DNA from: Roseovarius mucosus
GTDB taxonomy: Bacteria; Pseudomonadota; Alphaproteobacteria; Rhodobacterales; Rhodobacteraceae
DNA: 64,000 nt
Direction of reading: 5' to 3'
Assembly: GCF_002080415.1 (NCBI RefSeq)
Contig: NZ_CP020474.1
Coordinates: 3,113,501 to 3,177,500 of the forward strand
Part shown: positions 8,697 to 19,539 of the stretch, in pieces
How positions within the stretch are numbered: position 1 is the first letter of the stretch
Layout: every line of letters starts with the position of its first letter
Notes under the pieces: model-generated
Databases searched by the model: none
Seen by the model: the letters and a program-made list of their open reading frames with translations, nothing else
What the model was told of the DNA's origin: nothing
Position numbers and translations under genes: made by a program

Positions 8697-9305
8697 ATGA
8701 AACACTTGATCGCAACCGGGGCGCTGGCCCTTGCCATGCTTACCGGACCCGCCGTGGCGCAAGAGGCGGCCCCGGATACATCGCAAATCGTCGAAATGAC
8801 GATGGGGCCAGAGGATGCCAAGGTGACGATCATCGAATACGCGTCCTTTACCTGTCCGCATTGTGCCAATTTTCACAAGGGGCCGCTCAAGCAGTTGAAG
8901 GCTGAGTATATCGACACGGACAAGGTGCATTTCATCTATCGCGATGTCTATTTTGACCGGTTCGGCCTATGGGCGTCGATGGTGGCGCGCTGTGGCGGGC
9001 CCGAGAAATTCTTTGGCATCTCGGACATGATTTATGAGCAGCAGGGGGAATGGACCCAAGGCGAGCCTGCCGCGATTGCCGACAACCTGCGGCGGATCGG
9101 CAAGGTTGCGGGGCTGGAGCCGGATGCGGTTGAGGCCTGTCTCAATGACACCGAAAAGGCCAAGGCGCTGGTCGCGTGGTATCAAGAGAACGCCGAGGCC
9201 CATGGCGTCGAGTCGACGCCGACGCTGGTGATCAACGAGCAGAAATATGCCAACATGGCCTATGACGATCTCAAGGCGATCATCGAGGAAAAGCTGTCGG
9301 AGTGA
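8697..9305 (+). CDS. DsbA-family periplasmic thiol:disulfide oxidoreductase
   Basis: A 202-residue exported protein with a signal peptide ending near AVAQ-EA (residues 19-23) and a thioredoxin fold split by a helical insertion. The active site is C53-P-H-C56, the classic DsbA dithiol, and the cis-proline loop is STPTLVI near residue 178. It probably introduces or shuffles disulfides in periplasmic proteins. It starts 27 nt after the DUF721 gene and is probably cotranscribed with it. Which paralogue it is (DsbA, or a ScsC-like isomerase) cannot be settled here. Confidence 0.92.
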   Translation: MKHLIATGALALAMLTGPAVAQEAAPDTSQIVEMTMGPEDAKVTIIEYASFTCPHCANFHKGPLKQLKAEYIDTDKVHFIYRDVYFDRFGLWASMVARCGGPEKFFGISDMIYEQQGEWTQGEPAAIADNLRRIGKVAGLEPDAVEACLNDTEKAKALVAWYQENAEAHGVESTPTLVINEQKYANMAYDDLKAIIEEKLSE

Positions 9306-9321
9306 TCCACCAAGCGGGGTT

Positions 9322-9350
9322 GGGTCGGGATTGCGTATCCCGGCCCGTTT
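9322..9350 (+). terminator. Terminator hairpin after dsbA-like gene
   Basis: A 10-bp stem (GGGTCGGGAT pairing with ATCCCGGCCC, one G-U) with a 5-nt loop is followed by GTTTA. It lies 16 nt after the stop codon. Confidence 0.75.
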
Positions 9351-9382
9351 ATCCCTCTGGACAGTTTCGCACGGCAGTGGCA

Positions 9383-9398
9383 GAATTTGATCAAATTC
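9383..9398. promoter_or_regulatory. Perfect 16-bp palindrome, likely operator
   Basis: GAATTTGATCAAATTC is a perfect palindrome centred about 30 nt before the aminotransferase start codon. The surroundings are GC-rich, so an AT-rich symmetrical site of this length is a good candidate for a dimeric repressor or activator site controlling that gene. Confidence 0.6.
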
Positions 9399-9420
9399 CC
9401 TCTACCTGCCGGAGCACCCC

Positions 9421-10770
9421 ATGAAAGACGACAATTTCCTGCGTGAGATGAACGCGCGCCATCTGTGGCACCCGATGGGGCATCCCGGTGAGCAGCAGGC
9501 CAATGCGCCGAAAATCATCAAAAGTGCCGCAGGTGTGCGGATCACCGATATCGACGGGCATGATCCGGTGGATGCGGTGGGGGGCCTGTGGTGCGTCAAC
9601 CTTGGCTATTCCAACGATGTGGTGAAGCAGGCGATTTCCGATCAGCTTTGGCAATTGCCTTATTATTCTGCCTTTGCCGGCAGCACCAACCCTGCGGCCA
9701 TCGAAGCCTCTTATGCGGTGCAGGAGTTCTTTGCCGAGGATGGGATGACGCGCGTCTTTTTCACCTCGGGCGGGTCGGACAGCGTGGACACGGCGCTGCG
9801 CATGGCGCGGCAATATCATCGCCTGCGGGGCGAGCCGACGCGCACCAAGTTCCTGAGCCTGAAAAAGGGCTATCACGGCACCCATTGGGGTGGTGCGTCG
9901 GTCAATGGCAACAACCGGTTCCGGATCACCTATGAGCCGCTGTTGCCGGGCTGTTTTCATCTGCCCAGCCCCTATACCTATCGCAACCCGTTCGATGAGA
10001 TGGATGGGGCCAAACTGGCGGAAAAGATTGCTGCCACCATGGTGGATGAGATCGAGTTTCAGGACCCCAGCACGATTGCCGCCTTTATCATGGAGCCTAT
10101 TCAAGGGGCTGGCGGTGTGATCGTGCCGGATGCGTCCTTTATGAAGCATATGCGCGATATCTGCGACCGCTACGGCATTCTGATGATCTCGGACGAGGTG
10201 ATCACCGGATTTGGGCGCACGGGGGATTGGACCGGAGCCCGGCATTGGGGCGTCAAGCCCGACATGATGACCATCGCCAAGGGCATCACCAGCGGCTATT
10301 TCCCTGTGGGCGGCGTGGTTCTGGGCGACAAGGTCGCCGAGGTGTTTGAAAAGGCGGGGCCAGAGGGCAGCATCTGGACCGGCTACACCTATTCGGCGCA
10401 TCCCGTGGGGGCGGCGGCGGTGGTGGCCTGCCTGTCAGAAACGCTGCGGCTGGATACCAAGAGCAATGCCGCTGTGCGCGGCACGCAGCTTTATGAAGGG
10501 GTCAAGAAGCTGGCCGAAAAATACGACATCATCGGTGATGTGCGTGGCGGTCATGGCTTGATGATGGGAATCGAGCTGGTCAGCGACCGCGCGAAAAAGA
10601 CGCCCATGGATGCCGCGACCATGAAGCGGGTGCATCAGGCGACGTATGAGGCGGGGGCGATGGTGCGTCTGGGGGCGCATAATATCCTGATGTCGCCGCC
10701 TCTGGTGATTTCCGAGGCTGAGGTGAACGTGATCCTGTCGGCGCTTGATGCCGGGTTTGCGGCAGCCTGA
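9421..10770 (+). CDS. Class III PLP-dependent aminotransferase (omega-amino acid:pyruvate type)
   Basis: A 449-residue fold-type I aminotransferase. The PLP-binding lysine is K287 in MTIAKGITSGYFPVGG; SGGSDSVDTALRMAR binds the cofactor phosphate, and SDEVITGFGRTG contains the aspartate that pairs with the pyridine nitrogen. The sequence looks like omega-amino acid, beta-alanine or taurine:pyruvate transaminases, abundant in roseobacters, but the amino donor cannot be assigned from motifs. The gene stands alone, with a palindromic operator-like site upstream and a shared hairpin downstream. Confidence 0.9.
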   Translation: MKDDNFLREMNARHLWHPMGHPGEQQANAPKIIKSAAGVRITDIDGHDPVDAVGGLWCVNLGYSNDVVKQAISDQLWQLPYYSAFAGSTNPAAIEASYAVQEFFAEDGMTRVFFTSGGSDSVDTALRMARQYHRLRGEPTRTKFLSLKKGYHGTHWGGASVNGNNRFRITYEPLLPGCFHLPSPYTYRNPFDEMDGAKLAEKIAATMVDEIEFQDPSTIAAFIMEPIQGAGGVIVPDASFMKHMRDICDRYGILMISDEVITGFGRTGDWTGARHWGVKPDMMTIAKGITSGYFPVGGVVLGDKVAEVFEKAGPEGSIWTGYTYSAHPVGAAAVVACLSETLRLDTKSNAAVRGTQLYEGVKKLAEKYDIIGDVRGGHGLMMGIELVSDRAKKTPMDAATMKRVHQATYEAGAMVRLGAHNILMSPPLVISEAEVNVILSALDAGFAAA

Positions 10771-10785
10771 GCAGGCCATTCTACC

Positions 10786-10824
10786 TCTGAAAAAGCACGC
10801 AAGCGCCTGTTATGGCGCTTGCGT
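10786..10824 (-). terminator. Terminator of the minus-strand coiled-coil gene
   Basis: A perfect 11-bp stem (ACGCAAGCGCC / GGCGCTTGCGT, loop TGTTAT) lies between convergent genes. Read on the minus strand it is followed by GCTTTTTC, a normal U-tract. The hairpin could also stop plus-strand transcripts from the aminotransferase gene. Confidence 0.85.
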
Positions 10825-10853
10825 GGCGGCAGTTGAAAAGGCTGGGCAGACAG

Positions 10854-11138
10854 TTAGCCAAACCGACCCCATGCTGATTTCATGGCTTTGGACATGTTGT
10901 CCCAAGCCTCGTCTGCGCCGGTCTTGAAATCTTTCCACGCTTCGATGCTGGCGGCCTCAATCTTGTCATACTGGGCTGCCATGTCGGCGCGTTTCTCGCG
11001 CAGCTCTTTGATCTGCTCCTGATATTTGATCTGCATGTCGGCAGACGCCTCGCGCGACTGGGCTTGCAGCTTGTCGATTTCGGCTTTCCATTGATCGAGT
11101 TGGGCTTGCAGCTTGTTCTGGTATGTTTCTTTGTCCAT
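10854..11138 (-). CDS. Small coiled-coil protein of unknown function
   Basis: A 94-residue, highly charged, almost wholly helical protein. Heptad-like spacing runs from about residue 5 to 60 (KLQAQLDQWKAEIDKLQAQ, then IKELREKRADM) and the tail is Trp-rich (EAWKDFKTGADEAWDNMSKAMKSAWGRFG, of which AWKDFKTGADEAW is the core). No signal peptide is visible. The pattern resembles small sll1863-type stress-responsive proteins, but that is only a similarity of style. GGAGGA precedes the start. It has its own terminator. Confidence 0.75.
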   Translation of the reverse strand: MDKETYQNKLQAQLDQWKAEIDKLQAQSREASADMQIKYQEQIKELREKRADMAAQYDKIEAASIEAWKDFKTGADEAWDNMSKAMKSAWGRFG

Positions 11139-11207
11139 AACGGGTCCTCCTTGAGGGAAAATCGTCGTGTCGTTCTGACGTCTACCTATGCATGATCTCT
11201 ATGAATC

Positions 11208-11237
11208 CAAAGGGGCCAGCGGATGTCCGCTGGCCCC
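11208..11237 (-). terminator. Terminator of the uspA-symporter operon
   Basis: A perfect 12-bp inverted repeat (GGGGCCAGCGGA / TCCGCTGGCCCC) with a 2-nt centre lies 25 nt beyond the symporter stop codon. On the minus strand it is followed by TTTGG. Confidence 0.8.
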
Positions 11238-11262
11238 CATGATTGTCAAATCGGGTGAAAAG

Positions 11263-12801
11263 TTACTCGAACTTCTTGATTTCGCCTGATTTGAGCCGGC
11301 TGAGGTAGCTGTCCAACTCGCGTTTGACGATGGGCATCAGGATGTAGAGCCCGATGATATTGACCACTGCCATGGCAAAGATCGCCGCATCCGAGAAGTC
11401 GATCACCGGGCCAAGATTGGCGGCGGCACCGATCACCACGAAGATGCAGAAGATCACCTTGAACACCAGTTCCTTGGTCTCGCCTTCGCCAAAGAGATAG
11501 GTCCAGGCCTTGAGGCCGTAATAGGACCAGCTGATCATGGTGGAAAAGGCAAAGAGCACGACGGCGATTGCCAGAACATAAGGAAACCAACTGATCGCAC
11601 TGCCAAAGGCCGCCGAGGTGAGGCCCACGCCCGAAGTGCCGCCGACGGTTTGGATCGCGGTGCCCGCTTCGTTGAGCAGGTAATTGCCATCCGGTCCTGC
11701 AACAAGCTGCCCGGTGATGATGATCACAAGAGCGGTCATGGTGCAGATCACCACGGTGTCGATGAAAGGCTCAAGCAGCGATACGAACCCTTCGGTGATT
11801 GGTTCCTTGGTGCGCACCGCCGAATGGGCGATGGCCGCCGAACCAACACCAGCCTCGTTCGAGAAGGCGGCGCGTTTGAAGCCCTGAATGAGCGCGCCGA
11901 CCATGCCGCCCGCGACGCCAAGCCCGGTAAAGGCCCCTTCGAAAATCTGGCCAAACGCCCAGCCGATCTGATCCGCGTTCATCACGATGATGATAAGCGC
12001 TGTGCCGACATAGAGGATACCCATGAACGGCACGACCTTTTCGGTGACCCGCGCGATGGATTTCAGGCCGCCCACGATCACCGCAAAGACCACACCGGCA
12101 AAAATCACGCCGGTGATCCAGCCCGGATATGCGCCGACGATGCCCGCAATCTGCTGATGCGCCTGATTGGCCTGAAACATATTGCCGCCGCCAAGCGCGC
12201 CAAGGATACAAAAGATCGAGAAGAGCACGGCGAGGATTTTGCCACCCGGCACGCCGCGTTCGGCAAAGCCCTTGGTCAGGTAATACATCGGGCCGCCGGA
12301 AACGCGCCCGTCGGGGTATTCGTTGCGGTATTTCACGCCCAAGGTGCATTCGGTAAACTTAGACGCCATGCCCATGAGGCCCGCAAGGATCATCCAGAAG
12401 GTGGCACCGGGGCCACCGATGCTGACCGCAACGGCGACGCCTGCGATATTGCCAAGGCCGACAGTGCCCGAGAGGGCCGTCGCGAGCGCCTGAAAATGGC
12501 TGACCTCACCGGCATCGTTGGGGTCGGAGTAGTCGCCTTTGACCAATGCAATGGAATGGCCGATCGCGCGAAACTGGATAAAGCCGAAATAGAGCGTGAA
12601 CACGGTGGCACCAATCACCAACCAAGCCACGATCCACGGAAAGGAGGTGCCCGGAAAGTTGGAAAAGATCAGATTGACGAACCAGCCGGTTGAACTTGCG
12701 AAGATCTGATTGACCTTTTCATCAACGGATTGTGCATGGGCGGGCATGGCAAGCAATGCCGCCCCGACCGCAGCCGCCGCAGGAAATGCGTATCGTTTCA
12801 T
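11263..12801 (-). CDS. Sodium:alanine symporter (AGCS family)
   Basis: A 512-residue transporter with an N-terminal signal-like stretch and about ten membrane helices. AGCS hallmarks include GTVGLGNIAGVAVAVSIGGPGA (read as GTVGLGNIAGVA and SIGGPGATFWM), SNEAGVGSAAIAHSA and the WSYYGLKAWTYLFGE region near the C-terminus. It imports alanine or glycine with Na+. In-frame ATGs occur at 12810 and 12801; AGGG lies 9 nt before 12801 and abuts 12810, so I chose 12801. It follows uspA with a 27-nt gap, so the two form an operon. Confidence 0.93.
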   Translation of the reverse strand: MKRYAFPAAAAVGAALLAMPAHAQSVDEKVNQIFASSTGWFVNLIFSNFPGTSFPWIVAWLVIGATVFTLYFGFIQFRAIGHSIALVKGDYSDPNDAGEVSHFQALATALSGTVGLGNIAGVAVAVSIGGPGATFWMILAGLMGMASKFTECTLGVKYRNEYPDGRVSGGPMYYLTKGFAERGVPGGKILAVLFSIFCILGALGGGNMFQANQAHQQIAGIVGAYPGWITGVIFAGVVFAVIVGGLKSIARVTEKVVPFMGILYVGTALIIIVMNADQIGWAFGQIFEGAFTGLGVAGGMVGALIQGFKRAAFSNEAGVGSAAIAHSAVRTKEPITEGFVSLLEPFIDTVVICTMTALVIIITGQLVAGPDGNYLLNEAGTAIQTVGGTSGVGLTSAAFGSAISWFPYVLAIAVVLFAFSTMISWSYYGLKAWTYLFGEGETKELVFKVIFCIFVVIGAAANLGPVIDFSDAAIFAMAVVNIIGLYILMPIVKRELDSYLSRLKSGEIKKFE

Positions 12802-12828
12802 TTTTATCATCCCTGTTGTTTCTATATT

Positions 12829-13263
12829 TTATGGAACAATGGTGCAGGGCACCGGCGCTGTCTGAACGAGCGCACCGGCGACTGATCCGAACACCCGCGC
12901 GCCAATCGCCGACTGGCCATCACGCCCGATCACGATTTGAACGGCGTTCACCTCTTTGGCGATACGGCAGAGCAGATCGGCGGTATTGCCGTAGCGGATC
13001 ATGGTCTCAACCGGCATCCCGCTGTCCTGCAATTCGGCCACGACGGTGGAAGTGATCGCCTTTTCGGCGCGTTCCATTTCTTCGCGGCGGCGTTTGTGGC
13101 GCTCTTCCAATTCGCTTGCGGTCAGGAAGGAATAGGGCGACCATTCAAGCACATGCGCCAGAACGATGGTGCCGCCCTGAGCGCGTGCGCGGTCTACCGC
13201 GAATTCCAAGGCGCGTCGCGATGACACGCTGCCGTCGTAGCCGACGACGAACTTTCCAGACAT
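12829..13263 (-). CDS. Universal stress protein (UspA family)
   Basis: A 144-residue single Usp domain. It starts VVGYDGSVSSRRALEFA and ends with the family nucleotide-binding segment VIGRDGQSAIGARVFGSVAGALVQ (G-x2-G-x9-G-S type, here IGRDGQSAIGARVFGSVAG), suggesting an ATP-binding member. GAGGGAG precedes the ATG. It is the first gene of a two-gene operon with the sodium:alanine symporter. Small Usp proteins next to transporters often regulate them, which is an inference here. Confidence 0.92.
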   Translation of the reverse strand: MSGKFVVGYDGSVSSRRALEFAVDRARAQGGTIVLAHVLEWSPYSFLTASELEERHKRRREEMERAEKAITSTVVAELQDSGMPVETMIRYGNTADLLCRIAKEVNAVQIVIGRDGQSAIGARVFGSVAGALVQTAPVPCTIVP

Positions 13264-13493
13264 GACAGGATCTCCCTCGTTGTTGTTGCTTGTCCGGGCA
13301 TCCTGACGGCGCCCGGTAGGTTACTCTACCAGAGGTTACGTCTGCGGTTTTCCCGGATTTCCCGGTTTTGCAGGCCGAACGCTGTAAATTTCGGCAAAAT
13401 TCGGGATGTCCTGCAAGAATCTTCGGCTTTGATGCAGAGTTGCGTGCGTGGCGTATCGCCGCGCGCCGCTCTGTCACGGTGACGTCTGTCCCA

Positions 13494-13522
13494 TTGAATC
13501 CGGCGGGGGATTTGCGCATAGA
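13494..13522 (+). promoter_or_regulatory. Predicted sigma-70-type promoter of the DUF442-lpxK-like operon
   Basis: TTGAAT, a 17-nt spacer and CATAGA lie 27 nt before the likely start codon at 13549. The rest of 13264-13548, between divergent units, holds no gene I can support. Confidence 0.5.
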
Positions 13523-13548
13523 TGGGCCAAACCCTGCTGGAGAGCCTC

Positions 13549-13968
13549 ATGGACTTGCGCCTGATTACCCAAGATTTCACTGTGTCCCCGCAGATCGAGG
13601 TGGCGGATGTGGCCGCTCTCGTCGATGCCGGATATCGCTCGATCCTGTGCAACCGACCGGATGGCGAGGATTATGGGCAGCCTGCGTTTGATGCCGTTGC
13701 GGCGGCGGCAGAAGCGGCGGGGCTGGCGGTGCGGTGGGTGCCCATCCATTCTGGGCAGATGACGCAGGCTGCGCTGGACGAGTTTCGCGTGGCGCTAGAG
13801 GAAATGCCCAAGCCGATCCTTGCCTATTGCCGCTCTGGCACGCGCTGCACGATGCTGTGGAGCATCACGCGGTTCGAAGACTTGGGTGCGGACGAGATCC
13901 TGCGCGCGACCGCGAAGGCGGGCTATGACATGTCCGGTCTTGTGGCGCAGCTTGAACGCCGACAATGA
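13549..13968 (+). CDS. TIGR01244 / DUF442 family protein (phosphatase- or sulfurtransferase-like)
   Basis: A 139-residue protein of the DUF442 (beta-lactamase-hydrolase-like N-terminal) family, which has a tyrosine-phosphatase-like fold. The family opening ITQDFTVSPQI and NRPDGED are visible, and the P-loop AYCRSGTRCTMLW keeps the C-x5-R catalytic signature. Members are found near sulfide-oxidising and blh genes, but the substrate is unknown. The ATG at 13549 starts the family domain; an in-frame ATG at 13522 overlaps the predicted -10 element. Its stop overlaps the next start (ATGA), so it leads the operon. Confidence 0.85.
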   Translation: MDLRLITQDFTVSPQIEVADVAALVDAGYRSILCNRPDGEDYGQPAFDAVAAAAEAAGLAVRWVPIHSGQMTQAALDEFRVALEEMPKPILAYCRSGTRCTMLWSITRFEDLGADEILRATAKAGYDMSGLVAQLERRQ

Positions 13969-14684
13969 CCGATTGGGCCGCCATCGGCCATGACGGAGCG
14001 TGCGCGCGCGCCTTTGTGATGCAGGGCGCGCGGATCGTCGAGCAGGCCGCAGCCCCGGATGAAGCAGCTGCGCGGGCGCAGCTCCTGTCGATGCCGCAGC
14101 GGGTGTTTCGCATCGGTGAGGGGCAGGGGGATCACTTGCCCACGCAGGTATTGCCCCAAGGTGGGCGGGGTCTGGCCCCGCTGGTTCAGGACACCCCGCC
14201 CGATGTGATCGACGCTTGGGTGCGCCTTTTGCTGATCGGTCTTTTGCAGGCGCGGGCGCAATGGGATGGGGTGGCTTGGGTGGTCGGGCGCGACCTGAGC
14301 CATTGGGTGCATCTGAGCGCGGGCGAGGCGGTGAGTTGCCAGAGCTTTGTGACGCCCCGGCTGGTGCGTCTTTTGGGCGGTGCGGTGCTGCCCTCTGCTG
14401 AGGCCATGGCTGATACGCTCAGCCGTCCGGAACGATTGGCGGCGCATCTGCGGGGGGCGGAGGTGCGCGGGGATTCGGCCGCGATCACCGGGCATCTGTT
14501 GGCGGCGGAATTGGCTGCGGCGCGGCCCTATTGGCTAGGGCAAAGCGTGGTGCTGATTGCGGATGGATCACAAGCAGAGGGCCTTGCCGGAGCGCTGCGA
14601 GAGCATGGGGCGCCGGTCGAGCATGTCGCGCCTGAAAGTCTGATTGCATCGGCCTTGGCGGCGCTTGCCGGGGTGCTGGCGTGA
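13965..14684 (+). CDS. Degenerate 2-keto-3-deoxygalactonokinase (DgoK)-like protein
   Basis: A 239-residue protein alignable by eye to DgoK, which phosphorylates 2-keto-3-deoxy sugar acids. The C-terminal part is recognisable (ITGHLLAAELAAARPYWLGQSV, i.e. ITGHLLAAELAAARPYWLG, where DgoK has SGLLIGAEV). Key motifs have changed: the N-terminal phosphate-binding DWGSTNLR reads GHDGACAR (residues 8-15), PGTHSKW reads GRDLSHW (108-114), and the MRGEETQ region is missing, making it about 50 residues short. It overlaps both neighbours by 4 nt and is intact, so it looks like a maintained non-canonical homologue rather than a decaying pseudogene. Kinase activity is doubtful. Confidence 0.7.
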   Translation: MTDWAAIGHDGACARAFVMQGARIVEQAAAPDEAAARAQLLSMPQRVFRIGEGQGDHLPTQVLPQGGRGLAPLVQDTPPDVIDAWVRLLLIGLLQARAQWDGVAWVVGRDLSHWVHLSAGEAVSCQSFVTPRLVRLLGGAVLPSAEAMADTLSRPERLAAHLRGAEVRGDSAAITGHLLAAELAAARPYWLGQSVVLIADGSQAEGLAGALREHGAPVEHVAPESLIASALAALAGVLA

Positions 14685-15901
14685 GCCGGTCGCTTAGCCT
14701 ATCGGCCTATTTGGCCTATGCGCGCCGCGCCGGGCGCGCGGGCCCTGTGCCGGATCAGGTGCGCCCGCCCGGGCCCTTGATTTGGGCGCATGCGGTCGAT
14801 GCGGCGCGCGCGGACACGCTGGTGCATCTTGCGGAGCGGTTGGCGGCGCAGCGGCGCGGCTTGCATCTTTTGTTGACCACATCAAGCACGACCCCGGCCC
14901 GGACCGACATGGCGGCATCGGTCATCTGGCAGACAGTGCCCGAGGATAACCTGCCCGCCGCTGAGGCATTTTTGGCCCATTGGCGGCCTGATATCTGTGT
15001 GTGGACGGGCGGCGATTTGCGGCCTGCGCTGCTGATCTGTGCCTCGCGGATGGCGACCCCGCTTTATCTGGTTGATGCCGACGAGGAAAATCTGGACCGG
15101 GCAAGCTGGCGTTGGTTTCCCGACATGCCGCGCGCGGTGCTGGGGCTATTTACGGAAATCCTGACGCGGACCGAAGCGGCGGCACGGCTGGTGCGCCGCT
15201 TTGGGGCACCCGAACGGATCGTGACCGTCACGGGCGCGTTCCAAGAAGGGGCGATGACGCTGCCGTTTAATGCCGCCGAGCGCGAAGAGATGGCGGGCCT
15301 TTTGCGCAGTCGCCCGATCTGGTTGGCCTCGCGCATCCACCGCGATGAATTGGCAACCGTGCTGGAAACCCACCGTGAAGTCAGCCGTCTGGCGCATCGC
15401 AGCGTGCTGATCCTTGTGCCGGACGATTTGCAGGACTGCGCCGAGATGCGCGCCACGCTGGAGGCGCAGGGTTGGCGGGTGGCGGTCTGGTCCGAGGGCG
15501 AGATCCCAAGCGAGACAACGCAGGTGATTCTGGCCGATACGCGGGGCGAGATGGGGCTGTGGTATCGTCTGGCCCCGGTGACGTTCATGGGCTCGTCGCT
15601 GGTGTCTGGACAACATGGGCGCGATCCCAATGAGCCCGCCGCGCATGGCTCGGCAATCCTTTATGGCCCCAATGTGGGCCGCTATCTCAATCGCTATTCG
15701 CGCTATGCCGAGGCGGGGGCGGCGCGGATTGTGCGCGACAGCCCGACGCTGACAGCGGCGGTGCAGCGGTTGATTGCGCCGGATCAGGCGGCGGTGATGG
15801 CGCATGCGGCGTGGGATGTGGCCTCGCGTGGGGCGGCTGTGACTGACCGTATTCAAGATATGCTGCTGGATCGGCTGGACAGGCTGGACGCCGCGCGATG
15901 A
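14681..15901 (+). CDS. WaaA (Kdo transferase)-like protein lacking catalytic motifs
   Basis: This 406-residue GT-B protein is homologous to 3-deoxy-manno-octulosonate transferase. The donor-binding half is well kept: DTRGEMGLWYRLAPVTFMG at 286-304 matches the family GDTxGELGLWYRLAPVAFVG, and NEPAAHGSAILYGPN follows. The acceptor/catalytic half is altered: the SVGE motif with the catalytic Glu reads HAVDAAR (37-43), ESELWPN reads TGGDLRP (109-115), and PRHPER reads PDDLQD (247-252). So it is probably not a normal WaaA. It starts with GTG in a 4-nt overlap with the DgoK-like gene and overlaps the LpxK-like gene by 4 nt. Confidence 0.78.
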   Translation: MSRSLSLSAYLAYARRAGRAGPVPDQVRPPGPLIWAHAVDAARADTLVHLAERLAAQRRGLHLLLTTSSTTPARTDMAASVIWQTVPEDNLPAAEAFLAHWRPDICVWTGGDLRPALLICASRMATPLYLVDADEENLDRASWRWFPDMPRAVLGLFTEILTRTEAAARLVRRFGAPERIVTVTGAFQEGAMTLPFNAAEREEMAGLLRSRPIWLASRIHRDELATVLETHREVSRLAHRSVLILVPDDLQDCAEMRATLEAQGWRVAVWSEGEIPSETTQVILADTRGEMGLWYRLAPVTFMGSSLVSGQHGRDPNEPAAHGSAILYGPNVGRYLNRYSRYAEAGAARIVRDSPTLTAAVQRLIAPDQAAVMAHAAWDVASRGAAVTDRIQDMLLDRLDRLDAAR

Positions 15902-16884
15902 GCCTGCCCGCCTATTGGTTCACGCCACCGGATCGGCCCGGTTTGCGCGCGCGGCTTTTGACCCCTTGGGCGCTCTGGCGTGCGCGGCGCGCGGGGGCAG
16001 ATCAGGTTGGCTGGCGTGCGCCGGTGCCGGTGATCTCGGTCGATATGTTGGCGGCGGGGAGCGTGGGCAATTTGCCTGCGGTGCTGGCGGTGATCGGGCA
16101 GGTGCAGAGGCTTGGGTTTGCGCCCGTGATCCTTGCGCGCGGGGCGGCGGGGCCGGTTCGGATTGATCCGCGCCGCCATTGTGCGGAGGAGGTTGGGGGC
16201 GCTGCGCTGCTTGCGGCCGATTTTGCGCCGACTTGGGTTGCGCCCGACTGGGCTGAGGGCGCGCGGGCGGCCTTGGCGGAGGGGTCTGCCGATTGTTTCG
16301 TGATGATGGGCGGGCTGCGCGATCCCGCGTTGATCAAGGACCTGTCCATTGGGGTGGTCGATGCCGTGCGCGGCTTTGGCAATGGGCGGTGTCGTCCGGC
16401 TGGGCCACTTGCCGAGCCGTTGGAGGCTGGGTTGGCGCGGGTTCACCTGATGCTGAAGGTGGGGTCGCATGCCGCGCAGGCGCGGTTTGCAGCGCTATGG
16501 GGCGCGCGGATTTCATCGCCGGTGATGGCGGGCGAATTGCAACCGCTGGAAACGGGCATGGATTGGGCGGGCGCGCGGGTCTTGGCCTTTGCGGGGGGCG
16601 AAGATCCGGCGCTTTTCTTTGCCATGTTGCGGGGGCTTGGGGCAGAGCCTGTGCGCTTTGAGGCGTTGGCCACCAAGGAAGCCTATGGTCCGGGCCTATT
16701 GGCGCGGTTGGAGCGAGAGGCGTCTTTGCGCCGCGCCCAGCTGGTGACGACAGAAGAGGATGCCGTGCGGTTACCACTGGCGTTCCGGCGCAAGGTGATC
16801 AGCCTGCCGATGCGCTTGCAGGTGCCAGACCTTGCGCCGTTGGATGCGGCCCTGACGCAGGCGGGGCTACGTCAGGACAAATGA
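15898..16884 (+). CDS. LpxK (tetraacyldisaccharide 4'-kinase)-like protein lacking the P-loop
   Basis: A 328-residue LpxK homologue. It is collinear with the family from PAYWFTPPD to TTEEDAVRLP and keeps VVDAVRGFGNGRCRPAGPLAEP, here seen as GFGNGR and PAGPLAEP (159-174). However, Walker A GGTGKTP reads GSVGNLP (54-60), without the Lys and Thr, SRGYGG reads ARGAAG, and the DDGFQN catalytic aspartate motif reads MGGLRD (137-142). LpxK normally phosphorylates the lipid A disaccharide at the inner membrane; this copy should not bind ATP in the usual way. The frame is intact and it ends 4 nt before a convergent gene. Confidence 0.78.
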   Translation: MSLPAYWFTPPDRPGLRARLLTPWALWRARRAGADQVGWRAPVPVISVDMLAAGSVGNLPAVLAVIGQVQRLGFAPVILARGAAGPVRIDPRRHCAEEVGGAALLAADFAPTWVAPDWAEGARAALAEGSADCFVMMGGLRDPALIKDLSIGVVDAVRGFGNGRCRPAGPLAEPLEAGLARVHLMLKVGSHAAQARFAALWGARISSPVMAGELQPLETGMDWAGARVLAFAGGEDPALFFAMLRGLGAEPVRFEALATKEAYGPGLLARLEREASLRRAQLVTTEEDAVRLPLAFRRKVISLPMRLQVPDLAPLDAALTQAGLRQDK

Positions 16885-16888
16885 TCCG

Positions 16889-18202
16889 TCAGTTGAGGGT
16901 GCTGTCCAATCCAACAGGCTGACCCACCACGACAAAGGTCAGCGTTTCCGGATCGAGCAATTCGCGCGCGACACGGTTGATATCGTCGAGCGCGACGGCA
17001 TTCACCTTGTCATTGCGCGTTACGATGTAATCGGTCGGCAACCCCTCCATCTGCATGCCGACGGCGATGTCGGCGATGGGTCCATTCCCCTCGAACTGCA
17101 AAGGGTAGGCGCCGGTCAGATAGGTTTTGGCGTTTTCCAGCTCTTCAGGTGTGACACCCTCTGTGTGGATACGGTCCCATTCGTCACGAATGACAGTGAT
17201 CGCCTCGGCGACGCGGTCGTTGGCAGAGGCGACAGACCCCATCCAGAGTTGGGCCGCGTCCTTGTCCGCGAGATAGGAATAGACGCCATAGGTCAGGCCG
17301 CGCTTTTCACGAACCTCGCTCATCAACCGACTTTCAAAGCCGCCACCGCCAAGGATGTGGTTGAGGATATAGGCGGCAAAGAAATCGGGATCGTCGCGGT
17401 CGATGCCAGGTTGGGCAAAGGCCACAATGGATTGCGGTGTCGCAAAATCAGTGACCTTCACACCGCCCGGCAGATTAGGCGCGACATTGCCCGGCAGCGG
17501 TGCGCCGCTTTCGGGCAGGTCGCCAAGCAGGCTATCGAGAAGGGCGGCAAGCTCTGCCTCGGTGATGTCGCCCACGGCAGAGACATAAAGCCTGTCACGG
17601 GCCAGAGCGCCCTGATGTGCGGCCAAAATATCGTCGCGGGTAAGGGCCGTGACACTCTCGATGGTGCCGTCAAGCGATGAGCCATAGGGATGATCGCCGA
17701 ACACGAGGCTGTCAAACGCTTGTCCGACGATATCGCGCGGATCGGTTTGCGACGCGTTGATGATCGACAGGATCTGGGCGCGCACACGCTCGATGGCGTC
17801 GGGATCAAAGCGCGGCTCTACGAGGCTTGAGCGCAGGAGATCGACCGCTTGATCGCGGTTTTCGGTCAGAAACCGGGCTGAGACGCTGACGCGGTCGTCA
17901 TTGACGGAATAGCGGAAATCTGCGGCGAGGGATTCAGAGGCGCGCGCAAAGCCCTGCGCGTCCATCTCGGCGGCGCCTTCCTCAAGCAGGCCGACCATAA
18001 GATTGGTCACGCCGCGCTTGCCCTCCGGATCAAGAGAGCCGCCGCCGCGAAAGCGCAATTCAAGCGCCACGAAGGGGATCGAGTGATCCTCGACCAGCCA
18101 AGCCTCAAGCCCGCCGGGCGTTGTGATTTCCCTGACCTCGATTTCAGCGCGCGCGGGCAGCGCAGCCAGCAAAAGAACGAAACTCAGAACGAAACGGATC
18201 AT
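16889..18202 (-). CDS. M16 peptidase-like protein, non-catalytic partner
   Basis: A 437-residue M16-fold protein with a signal peptide (FVLSFVLLLAALPARA). The zinc motif HxxEH is absent: the equivalent segment reads TNLMVGLLEEG. The C-terminal half keeps the substrate-contact motif REKRGLTYGVYSYL. This is the usual pattern of the inactive partner in two-gene M16 peptidase pairs. The start overlaps the stop of the active paralogue by 4 nt (ATGA), implying translational coupling and a heterodimer in the periplasm. Confidence 0.93.
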   Translation of the reverse strand: MIRFVLSFVLLLAALPARAEIEVREITTPGGLEAWLVEDHSIPFVALELRFRGGGSLDPEGKRGVTNLMVGLLEEGAAEMDAQGFARASESLAADFRYSVNDDRVSVSARFLTENRDQAVDLLRSSLVEPRFDPDAIERVRAQILSIINASQTDPRDIVGQAFDSLVFGDHPYGSSLDGTIESVTALTRDDILAAHQGALARDRLYVSAVGDITEAELAALLDSLLGDLPESGAPLPGNVAPNLPGGVKVTDFATPQSIVAFAQPGIDRDDPDFFAAYILNHILGGGGFESRLMSEVREKRGLTYGVYSYLADKDAAQLWMGSVASANDRVAEAITVIRDEWDRIHTEGVTPEELENAKTYLTGAYPLQFEGNGPIADIAVGMQMEGLPTDYIVTRNDKVNAVALDDINRVARELLDPETLTFVVVGQPVGLDSTLN

Positions 18203-19539
18203 TGCGTGACCTCCGGTGCCATAAGCCAGCCTGTGACAGATTGCGTGCGATCCAGCACGTCGCGTGCGGCCTGCAAGATGTCTTCTTCGGTTGTGGCCTG
18301 AAGGATCGCGGGCCACGCTTGCACATCGGCCACGGTCAGCCCCTGTGTCAGCGCCTGACCATAGCGATTGGCCAAGCCGCCGGCATCGTCACGGGCATAG
18401 GTTTCCGAGGCGCGGAATTGCGTCTTGATACGCTCAAGCTGTTCGGCATCCACGCCTGTTTCCAGGAATGTCAGAAGCGCCTCGTCCATCGCCGCCTCGG
18501 CCTGTTCCAGTGTGACACCGGGGGCGGGCACGACAAAGAGGTCAAAGGTGGTGTCATCCAGCGACAGGCCCGAATAAGACGCGCCAACCTGCACCGCTGT
18601 CTGGTTCTGGAATTGCAGTTTCTCGGCCAGAAGGGATGTTTGACCGCCACCCAGAATATCGGCCAGCAGGGTCAGCGCTGCGGCCTTTTCCTGTGCGCCG
18701 CTGTCACGCTCGGGGGCGAGATAGGAGCGGGTCACATAGGGTTGCGACACGCGCGCGTCGCGCAACGTGATCCGCCGCTCGGCAAGTTGCGGCGGCTCTT
18801 GCGGGCGGGCGCGCTCGGGCAGGGCAGGGTTGGCAGGGATGGGGCCGTAATAGGTGTCGGCCAGAGCGCGCACCGCGTCAGGCGTGACATCACCCGCGAT
18901 GATCAGGATGGCGTTATTGGGGGCGTAGAATGTTCGATAGAACTCTAGCGCCGCGTCAAGATCGAGGGCCTCCATCTCGTGCCGCCAGCCGATGATCGGC
19001 ACACCGTAACGGTGATTGAGATATTGCGTCGCGTTCTTTTGCTCACGGAACAGCGCGCCGGGGCTGTTTTCGACCCGTTGATTGCGTTCTTCGATGATCA
19101 CATCGCGCTCGGTCAGGATATCGGCCTCGTCGAGCTGCAGATTGGTCATACGGTCCGATTCCATCCGCATGACCAGCTCAAGCCGGTCGGCGGCGATACG
19201 CTGGAAATAGGCGGTGTAATCATAGCTGGTAAAGGCATTGTCCGAGCCGCCATTGCGCGCCACGGTGGCGGAAAATTCGCCTGGTTCCATGGTCTTGGTG
19301 CCCTTGAAGAGCAAATGTTCAAGAAAATGTGCAACGCCCGAGACGCCCGGCGTTTCGTCGGCAGACCCGGCGCGATACCACAGCATTTGCGTGACAACTG
19401 GCGCGCGGTGATCCTCGATCACCACCACATCAAGCCCGTTGTCGAGCGTGAAATGCGTCACCTGATCGGTGGTCGAGGCTGATACTGGGGCCGCGAGCGG
19501 TAAGAGGGCCAGCGTCAGCCCGGCAAGGAAATGTCGCAT
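18199..19539 (-). CDS. M16 family zinc metallopeptidase, catalytic subunit
   Basis: A 446-residue exported M16 peptidase with a signal peptide ending near VSAS (18-22). The inverted zinc motif H71-F-L-E-H75 and the distal glutamate in IIEERNQR (E150/E151) are present, and GDVTPDAV begins the second half. The enzymes are clam-shell proteases that degrade small peptides; this one probably works with the HxxEH-less partner encoded immediately downstream. It is preceded by the DUF3035 lipoprotein and follows lspA in a long minus-strand run. Confidence 0.95.
   Translation of the reverse strand: MRHFLAGLTLALLPLAAPVSASTTDQVTHFTLDNGLDVVVIEDHRAPVVTQMLWYRAGSADETPGVSGVAHFLEHLLFKGTKTMEPGEFSATVARNGGSDNAFTSYDYTAYFQRIAADRLELVMRMESDRMTNLQLDEADILTERDVIIEERNQRVENSPGALFREQKNATQYLNHRYGVPIIGWRHEMEALDLDAALEFYRTFYAPNNAILIIAGDVTPDAVRALADTYYGPIPANPALPERARPQEPPQLAERRITLRDARVSQPYVTRSYLAPERDSGAQEKAAALTLLADILGGGQTSLLAEKLQFQNQTAVQVGASYSGLSLDDTTFDLFVVPAPGVTLEQAEAAMDEALLTFLETGVDAEQLERIKTQFRASETYARDDAGGLANRYGQALTQGLTVADVQAWPAILQATTEEDILQAARDVLDRTQSVTGWLMAPEVTQ

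Follow-up and report, generated by a model that had tools for sequence, protein, structure and literature searches.

As a rule, Gram-negative bacteria depend on lipid A for survival, and what allows some of them to lose it has yet to be explained (PMC10964400); the lipid-A-free diderms named in that source are Sphingomonas, naturally so, Caulobacter in a fur background and mutants of Acinetobacter. Like these organisms, part of the genus Roseovarius would have an outer membrane without the lipid A genes, Roseovarius being known here from genes alone. It differs from them in about five natural losses within one genus and in Lpt genes and an LpxK homologue that are kept under selection, the Lpt and LpxK genes having been read on the Roseovarius side only. 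The locus examined lies in a 64,000-nucleotide window (the whole stretch of DNA analysed) of Roseovarius mucosus, NCBI RefSeq assembly GCF_002080415.1, contig NZ_CP020474.1, positions 3,113,501 to 3,177,500. It consists of four plus-strand genes at window positions 13522-16884, encoding in this order a DUF442 protein, a DgoK-like protein, a WaaA-like protein (WaaA2) and an LpxK-like protein; the frames are open and there are three overlaps of 4 nt, so that the intact overlapping operon described in the first-pass annotation was recovered. Based on sequence comparisons, and with a confidence that stays somewhat short of even, it is proposed that the last gene, lpxK, encodes a pseudokinase likely surviving as a non-catalytic partner of the co-translated WaaA2, in a genome without a match to LpxC or LpxB. 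If true, this pseudokinase could reveal what makes life without lipid A possible for Gram-negative cells.

Compared with known LpxK (PF02606, TIGR00682; Aquifex structures 4ehx and 4lkv), the window protein (328 aa, 15898..16884, plus strand; PF02606 170 bits, cut-off 27) is alike in predicted fold, in length and in most non-catalytic conserved columns, and its gene likewise stands after a waaA-like gene. It differs in that the ATP, Mg and catalytic residues are replaced, in that it misses the TIGR00682 equivalog cut-off (85 vs 91.95 bits) and in that its host genome has no LpxC or LpxB match. The structural model of LpxK has a predicted local distance difference test score (pLDDT) of 90.3 and its six best Foldseek matches are all LpxK with TM of 0.66-0.74 (best 4lkv and 4ehx), a family-like fold being expected of a model made from the family alignment; phmmer of the protein against PDB sequences gave no match. 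Within the recognized Pfam LpxK domain, Walker A reads GSVGNLP, GDEP has become GGAA, the DDG.QN site is MGGLRD, DHQ has become TKE and TEKDA has become TEEDA (the changes in GDEP, DHQ and TEKDA going beyond those named in the first-pass annotation), with loss of the Walker A Lys/Thr, the Asp-Glu pair of GDEP, both Walker B Asp and the catalytic His of DHQ (D99, E100 and H261 were placed on GDEP and DHQ by our own motif matching). In Aquifex LpxK, according to an excerpt of PMC6286764, mutating K51, T52, D138, D139 or H261 cut kcat 850- to 8100-fold.

The replaced positions were compared with 54 LpxK copies, of which 36 come from Roseovarius genomes with LpxC and 18 from other genera whose LpxC status was unchecked. 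Conservation of 95% or more is reached in 122 columns of this set, and the motifs Walker A, GDEP, DDG.QN, DHQ and TEKDA account for 24 of these. The window LpxK retains 9/24 active-site columns vs 73/98 other conserved columns (permutation p 0.0007), in agreement with the earlier claim that the ATP-binding and catalytic positions are replaced. The same counts are 8/24 and 73/98 in G008, 12/24 and 84/98 in G041 and 12/24 and 73/98 (p 0.02) in G044 (G numbers designate genomes, L numbers loci), while G083 kept 24/24 and 96/98. LpxK scores 309-347 bits in 69 of the 70 LpxC-positive genomes of the genus (none in G072, 72% complete), and 61-261 bits in the genomes counted below as lipid-A-less, except for G083 (324 bits) and G040 (no match). 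Overall, LpxK is found in 12 of these 13 genomes, one copy being intact and 11 having an ATP site damaged to varying degrees, and in four of the five loss lineages the changes fall mainly at ATP, Mg and catalytic positions, the rest having changed less. The MGGLRD sequence and a GxVGxLP loop are common to R. mucosus and its nearest relatives, which, together with the predicted retention of the fold, would be compatible with a new enzyme in which the LpxK fold serves another chemistry or substrate in these lineages. Against this, the replacements at the same sites differ between and within loss lineages (MGGLRD, IGESYN, SGAAYD, VGGFHD and EDGRGP at the DDG.QN site), suggesting freedom and not a new active site, and the new-enzyme explanation is regarded as improbable.

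The main fact, missed in the first-pass annotation, is that the lipid A pathway genes themselves are missing. A search for other waaA and lpxK genes, as had been advised there, gave no further match, the window genome having one PF04413 and one PF02606 gene, both in the operon. LpxC and LpxB gave no match in this genome with searches that detected the E. coli and Caulobacter controls, the genome-wide LpxB search covering the window genome only; the genome thus lacks the two genes whose absence was taken to define a lipid-A-less diderm. Among 84 genomes of the genus, LpxC was found in 70, LpxK in 81, LptD in 84 and KdsA in 83; restriction to the 72 genomes with a completeness of 90% or more and a contamination of 5% or less gives 62 with LpxC and 72 with LpxK. 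Thirteen of the 84 appear to be without lipid A synthesis, a state deduced from gene absence: G000, G008, G023, G034, G039, G040, G041, G042, G044, G047, G049, G058 and G083, including the incomplete assemblies G039 (65%), G040 (73%) and G044 (86%). All 13 retain LptD and KdsA. G063 (81% complete) was rejected as lipid-A-less despite its lack of an LpxC match, as canonical WaaA, lpxA, lpxI and lpxB are present. The bamA loci were informative for 11 of the 13 genomes, the contigs of G044 and G049 ending too early. In 8/8 other loci (G006, G014, G018, G028, G048, G063, G068 and G081) bamA-ompH-fabZ is followed by lpxA-lpxI-lpxB, and lpxA and lpxB were found in 0/11 lipid-A-less bamA loci extending past fabZ; absence of lpxA, lpxI and lpxB at these loci was rechecked by tblastn, open reading frame calling having missed some genes (e.g. 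lpxA of G014). As a separate observation, G083 alone among these 11 loci keeps an LpxI gene at its bamA locus (L096, 5913-6821), with no lpxA or lpxB there; LpxC and canonical WaaA were not found in its genome and its LpxK is still canonical, which looks like a recent loss.

Several Roseovarius lineages are accordingly without the tested lipid A genes and canonical WaaA and keep WaaA2, an LpxK homologue, LptD and KdsA, as well as LptF and LptG where these were read. The retention of LptD, LptF, LptG and KdsA, with lpt genes under purifying selection, would fit an unusual lipid A pathway in which WaaA2 and LpxK are working enzymes and unrecognised substitutes stand in for LpxC, LpxA and LpxB. 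This is considered highly improbable in view of the missing LpxC and LpxB matches, the absence of lpxA, lpxI and lpxB from their usual place, the missing canonical WaaA, the replacement in LpxK of the Lys/Thr of Walker A, the two Asp of Walker B, the Asp-Glu pair of GDEP and the catalytic His, and the large kcat effects of the Aquifex mutations given above.

The distribution of the lipid-A-less label over a BamA tree of 40 rows requires five changes, and five are forced by well-supported branches; the WaaA2 tree (68 rows), from a locus different from bamA, likewise forces five. Seven long-branch loci from other genera were left out of the WaaA2 tree, four duplicate rows were dropped (from the LpxK column comparison, the WaaA2 tree and the WaaA2 column comparison), and the LpxK tree was set aside for loss counting, as it groups fast-evolving copies together. 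The five changes are read here as losses, not regains. The loss groups, each given with its nearest LpxC-positive rows, are G044 (G014); G083 (G035); G041 (G009); G008, G039, G042 and G047, with G040 on BamA (G038 and G048); and G000, G023, G034, G049 and G058 (G076). Pairings of weaker support are G083 with G035 (94/94) and G076 with the R. mucosus group (86/72) on the BamA tree, and G041 with G009 (90/17) on the WaaA2 tree. About five losses in one genus, each with an LpxC-positive tree neighbour and some in named cultured species, would constitute a natural experiment, singling out the lipopolysaccharide (LPS)-related genes that are selected without lipid A, namely lptD/F/G, waaA2 and the LpxK scaffold. 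In the wider family LpxC was found in 389/395 sampled genomes. Two of the five other family genomes without an LpxC match, G194 and G442, have a high-scoring LpxK (266-324 bits), and therefore the missing LpxC may be an assembly gap. It was also observed that G266, of another genus (locus L160), is without LpxC and has an LpxK that keeps Walker A, is without the DDG.QN motif (DDGFQN) and adjoins a WaaA2 gene; this is possibly a further independent case.

The ratio of nonsynonymous to synonymous substitution rates (dN/dS, omega) was estimated with the simple NG86 method on chosen groups, with 48 LpxK pairs of which 11 were bootstrapped. LpxK dN/dS is 0.20-0.27 in the window clade (10 pairs) and 0.05-0.24 in LpxC-positive genomes (32 pairs), with bootstrap upper bounds in the window clade of 0.28-0.35 (4/10 pairs bootstrapped). 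No stop inside the frame was found in the 12 lipid-A-less LpxK copies, and in a simple neutral simulation about 1% of copies remain stop-free at 0.3 substitutions per site. Neither a dN/dS near 1 nor the frameshifts or stops expected of a pseudogene are therefore seen in the window clade, so that the simple decay envisaged in the first-pass annotation finds no sign there; in the G042 clade this result is weaker.

The serious and main rival to the pseudokinase proposal is nevertheless slow decay, above all in the G042 clade, whereby LpxK would have no function after the loss of lipid A and its frame would have lasted owing to the terminal position of lpxK in a co-translated operon and to the shortness of the time elapsed; this is held to be doubtful, with about one chance in three. 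Several observations favour it or weigh against a maintained non-catalytic LpxK. LpxK evolves faster in the window clade than in LpxC-positive relatives, at about four times the rate of WaaA2, and in the clade of G008, G039, G042 and G047 its omega is 0.28-0.60 (6 pairs) with 0.13-0.29 for WaaA2, the LpxK N-terminus being shortened in G047 and G042. The copies form a graded series from the intact G083 through G034 and G041 to the strongly altered ones; G034 keeps 19/24 active-site vs 88/98 other columns, a bias that is not significant (p 0.14), and G083, without LpxC, has a canonical LpxK, from which it follows that decay comes after the loss and is not simultaneous with it. In addition, G168 and G455, two of the five other family genomes without LpxC and both of one genus, are also without an LpxK match, LpxK could be retained via translational coupling with WaaA2 alone, and KdsA retention was rejected as proof of WaaA2 using 3-deoxy-D-manno-octulosonic acid (Kdo), the polysaccharide-export neighbours of kdsA offering a simpler reason. 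On the other hand, slow decay does not readily account for the six pairs formed by four genomes that already share the altered active site, where omega is 0.20-0.27 (with upper bounds of no more than 0.35 in three pairs bootstrapped), for the 12 copies without an internal stop, the simulated neutral probability of a stop-free copy being about 0.01 at 0.3 substitutions per site, or for a loss concentrated at the ATP site in most lineages. Because the loss is concentrated at the ATP site, the frames are open, dN/dS is low and the operon is shared, a non-catalytic role of LpxK that outlasted the kinase role, most likely with WaaA2, is the most parsimonious interpretation.

The proposed partner, WaaA2 (406 aa, 14681..15901, plus strand; PF04413 82 bits), shares with WaaA/KdtA (GT30, PF04413; 2xci, 4bfc) a GT-B fold, the similarity of the C-terminal donor domain and the position of the ribose-binding Glu; its AlphaFold model has a mean pLDDT of 89.2 and a GT-B fold with 2xci as best PDB match. 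In contrast to WaaA/KdtA, the Glu31, Glu98 and Arg212 positions are replaced in most of the WaaA2 family, the WaaA equivalog cut-off is not reached (best 198 vs 617 bits) and, in LpxC-positive relatives, WaaA2 coexists with a canonical WaaA located elsewhere. The columns were compared with 11 canonical WaaA of the genus (11/12 loci readable) that we matched through the 2xci alignment, with residue roles taken from an excerpt of PMC6286764. Among 75 WaaA2 paralogues, 18 of which are loci of other genera with LpxC status unchecked, Glu occupies the Glu31 column in 6 and the ribose-binding Glu276 column in 60, Gly occupies the Glu98 column in 60, and Asp the Arg212 column in 46. The window copy, which contains HAVDAAR, TGGDLRP and PDDLQD, has Arg, Gly and Asp at the canonical Glu31, Glu98 and Arg212 positions and keeps the Glu276 position for the ribose of cytidine monophosphate (CMP).

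Two PF04413 genes, a canonical WaaA (174-193 bits) and a second gene (56-103 bits), are present in 67/70 LpxC-positive genomes, the exceptions being G056 (one), G059 (three pieces) and G072 (none); the second gene lies directly upstream of lpxK in 66/67, and on another contig in G055. Lipid-A-less genomes have the paralogue kind only, at 80-94 bits in 11 of them; in G041 it is cut by the contig end and was detected by BLAST, and none was found in G040 (73% complete). A WaaA2-type gene also precedes lpxK in 18/18 loci used from other genera, and waaA2 and lpxK were neighbours in 75/75 pairs measured, with an overlap of 1-14 nt in 72. WaaA2 is under purifying selection, with a dN/dS of 0.04-0.08 in the window clade (10 pairs); the G042 clade gives 0.13-0.29 and the LpxC-positive groups 0.06-0.24. 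Going by these comparisons, the WaaA-like gene is an old GT30 paralogue, not a decayed canonical WaaA. Every deviating motif quoted in the first-pass annotation for the DgoK-like, WaaA-like and LpxK-like proteins is present; the joint loss of catalytic motifs that it described in all three enzymes holds for LpxK only, whose changes are specific to the lineage. A joint decay of three enzymes was rejected, as WaaA2 orthologues of LpxC-positive genomes, alongside a canonical WaaA, carry similar motifs and the short DgoK form is a conserved family.

In the mechanism that is proposed, LpxK of this family would have had two jobs before the losses: besides catalysing the 4'-kinase reaction it would have served WaaA2 at the inner membrane, either structurally or by presenting lipid; once the kinase substrate was gone, selection would have acted only on the second. 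WaaA2 would belong to an envelope pathway for a lipid or glycan that does not depend on lipid A, and the product of this pathway may be the cargo of the retained Lpt bridge. Two questions would thereby become testable, that of the cargo of the Lpt bridge without LPS and that of a second, non-enzymatic role of LpxK. A broader and unlikely extension is that a second, lipid-A-independent and Lpt-exported surface glycolipid, made with WaaA2 and with LpxK as its non-catalytic lipid-presenting subunit, served as a backup that allowed about five lipid A losses, with hollowing of the kinase site and keeping of the scaffold. As for the bridge itself, lptF-lptG-lptD-surA-pdxA-ksgA is present in the window genome, with LptF and LptG above NCBIfam cut-offs. 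In the window clade omega is 0.03-0.11 for lptF, lptG and lptD (two pairs each) and 0.05-0.07 for pdxA and ksgA; in the G008/G042/G047 group it is 0.11-0.22 for the three lpt genes. The lpt genes being under purifying selection, export by this route seems to remain important in the absence of lipid A.

A link to Kdo was also considered, KdsA being found in all but one of the genus genomes as given above. In the window genome, outside the window, the kdsA cluster (L151, 8093-12715) was observed to contain a KpsE-like gene next to kdsA (178.8 bits, short of the 437.5 required for TIGR01010), an export-type ABC ATPase whose best match, below cut-off, is a polysaccharide exporter, and a phosphomannomutase-like gene. 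The R. mucosus type strain is slimy and has two capsule transporters according to an excerpt of PMC4511512; an excerpt of PMC6691348 makes no mention of lipids. Since kdsA adjoins polysaccharide-export-type genes and the type strain is slimy with capsule transporters, Kdo may serve capsule, and L151 is perhaps a Kdo-containing capsule locus.

The two upstream genes seem to have joined the waaA2-lpxK pair locally, as DUF442 and DgoK adjoin waaA2 only in G000, G023, G034, G049 and G058 among the loci read. The description of the operon as led by DUF442 therefore stands in 5/12 lipid-A-less genomes with the waaA2-lpxK locus read (that of G041 being cut by the contig end). The first gene (148 aa, 13522..13968, plus strand) encodes a DUF442/TIGR01244-type sulfurtransferase-phosphatase-like protein with a CRSGTR loop, matching PF04273 (110 bits, 8.2e-32) and TIGR01244 (136 bits, above the cut-off of 85.85); position 13549, the start given in the first-pass annotation, is an ATG lying within this frame. 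Its dN/dS is 0.05-0.11 in 9 pairs, 1 further pair being saturated. The short DgoK-like protein (239 aa, 13965..14684, plus strand), which contains GHDGACAR and GRDLSHW, resembles DgoK (PF05035; 3t69, 3r1x) in the C-terminal domain; a whole-domain match fails, with 34 bits over residues 161-233 only (profile 208-280 of 281). In contrast to solved DgoK chains of 295-330 aa, it has about 240 aa and no N-terminal PF05035 match. Among the best 120 of 360 matches, relatives at about 47-62% identity, several of them named Roseovarius, have G.DG, HW and YWLGQ features in common, hence the motifs of the window protein are a family trait. A member also occurs in R. litorisediminis, taken as the LpxC-positive genome G020, which speaks against an enzyme that lost its motifs, and dN/dS is 0.11-0.24 (10 pairs). 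The Pfam names for the four proteins are, in gene order, BLH_phosphatase, DGOK (C-terminal part only), Glycos_transf_N and LpxK.

The host genome has 4,381,426 bases in three contigs, the largest of 4,170,996 bases. Promoter and terminator scans gave nothing clearly exceeding shuffled sequence, and a plasmid search returned 25 records, all below 60% identity, with 8/25 among the matches listed, in an organism count without Roseovarius from which records of the genome itself were possibly omitted. In many relatives a dsbA-like gene lies next to lpxK or one gene from it; here it is more distant (window 8697-13968), an aminotransferase, a symporter, a USP gene, DUF442 and DgoK lying between it and the waaA2-lpxK pair; the pair and the dsbA-like gene are co-oriented in the window and opposite in those relatives. 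Directly downstream of the operon, on the other strand, are two neighbouring M16-family peptidase genes (window 16889-19539).

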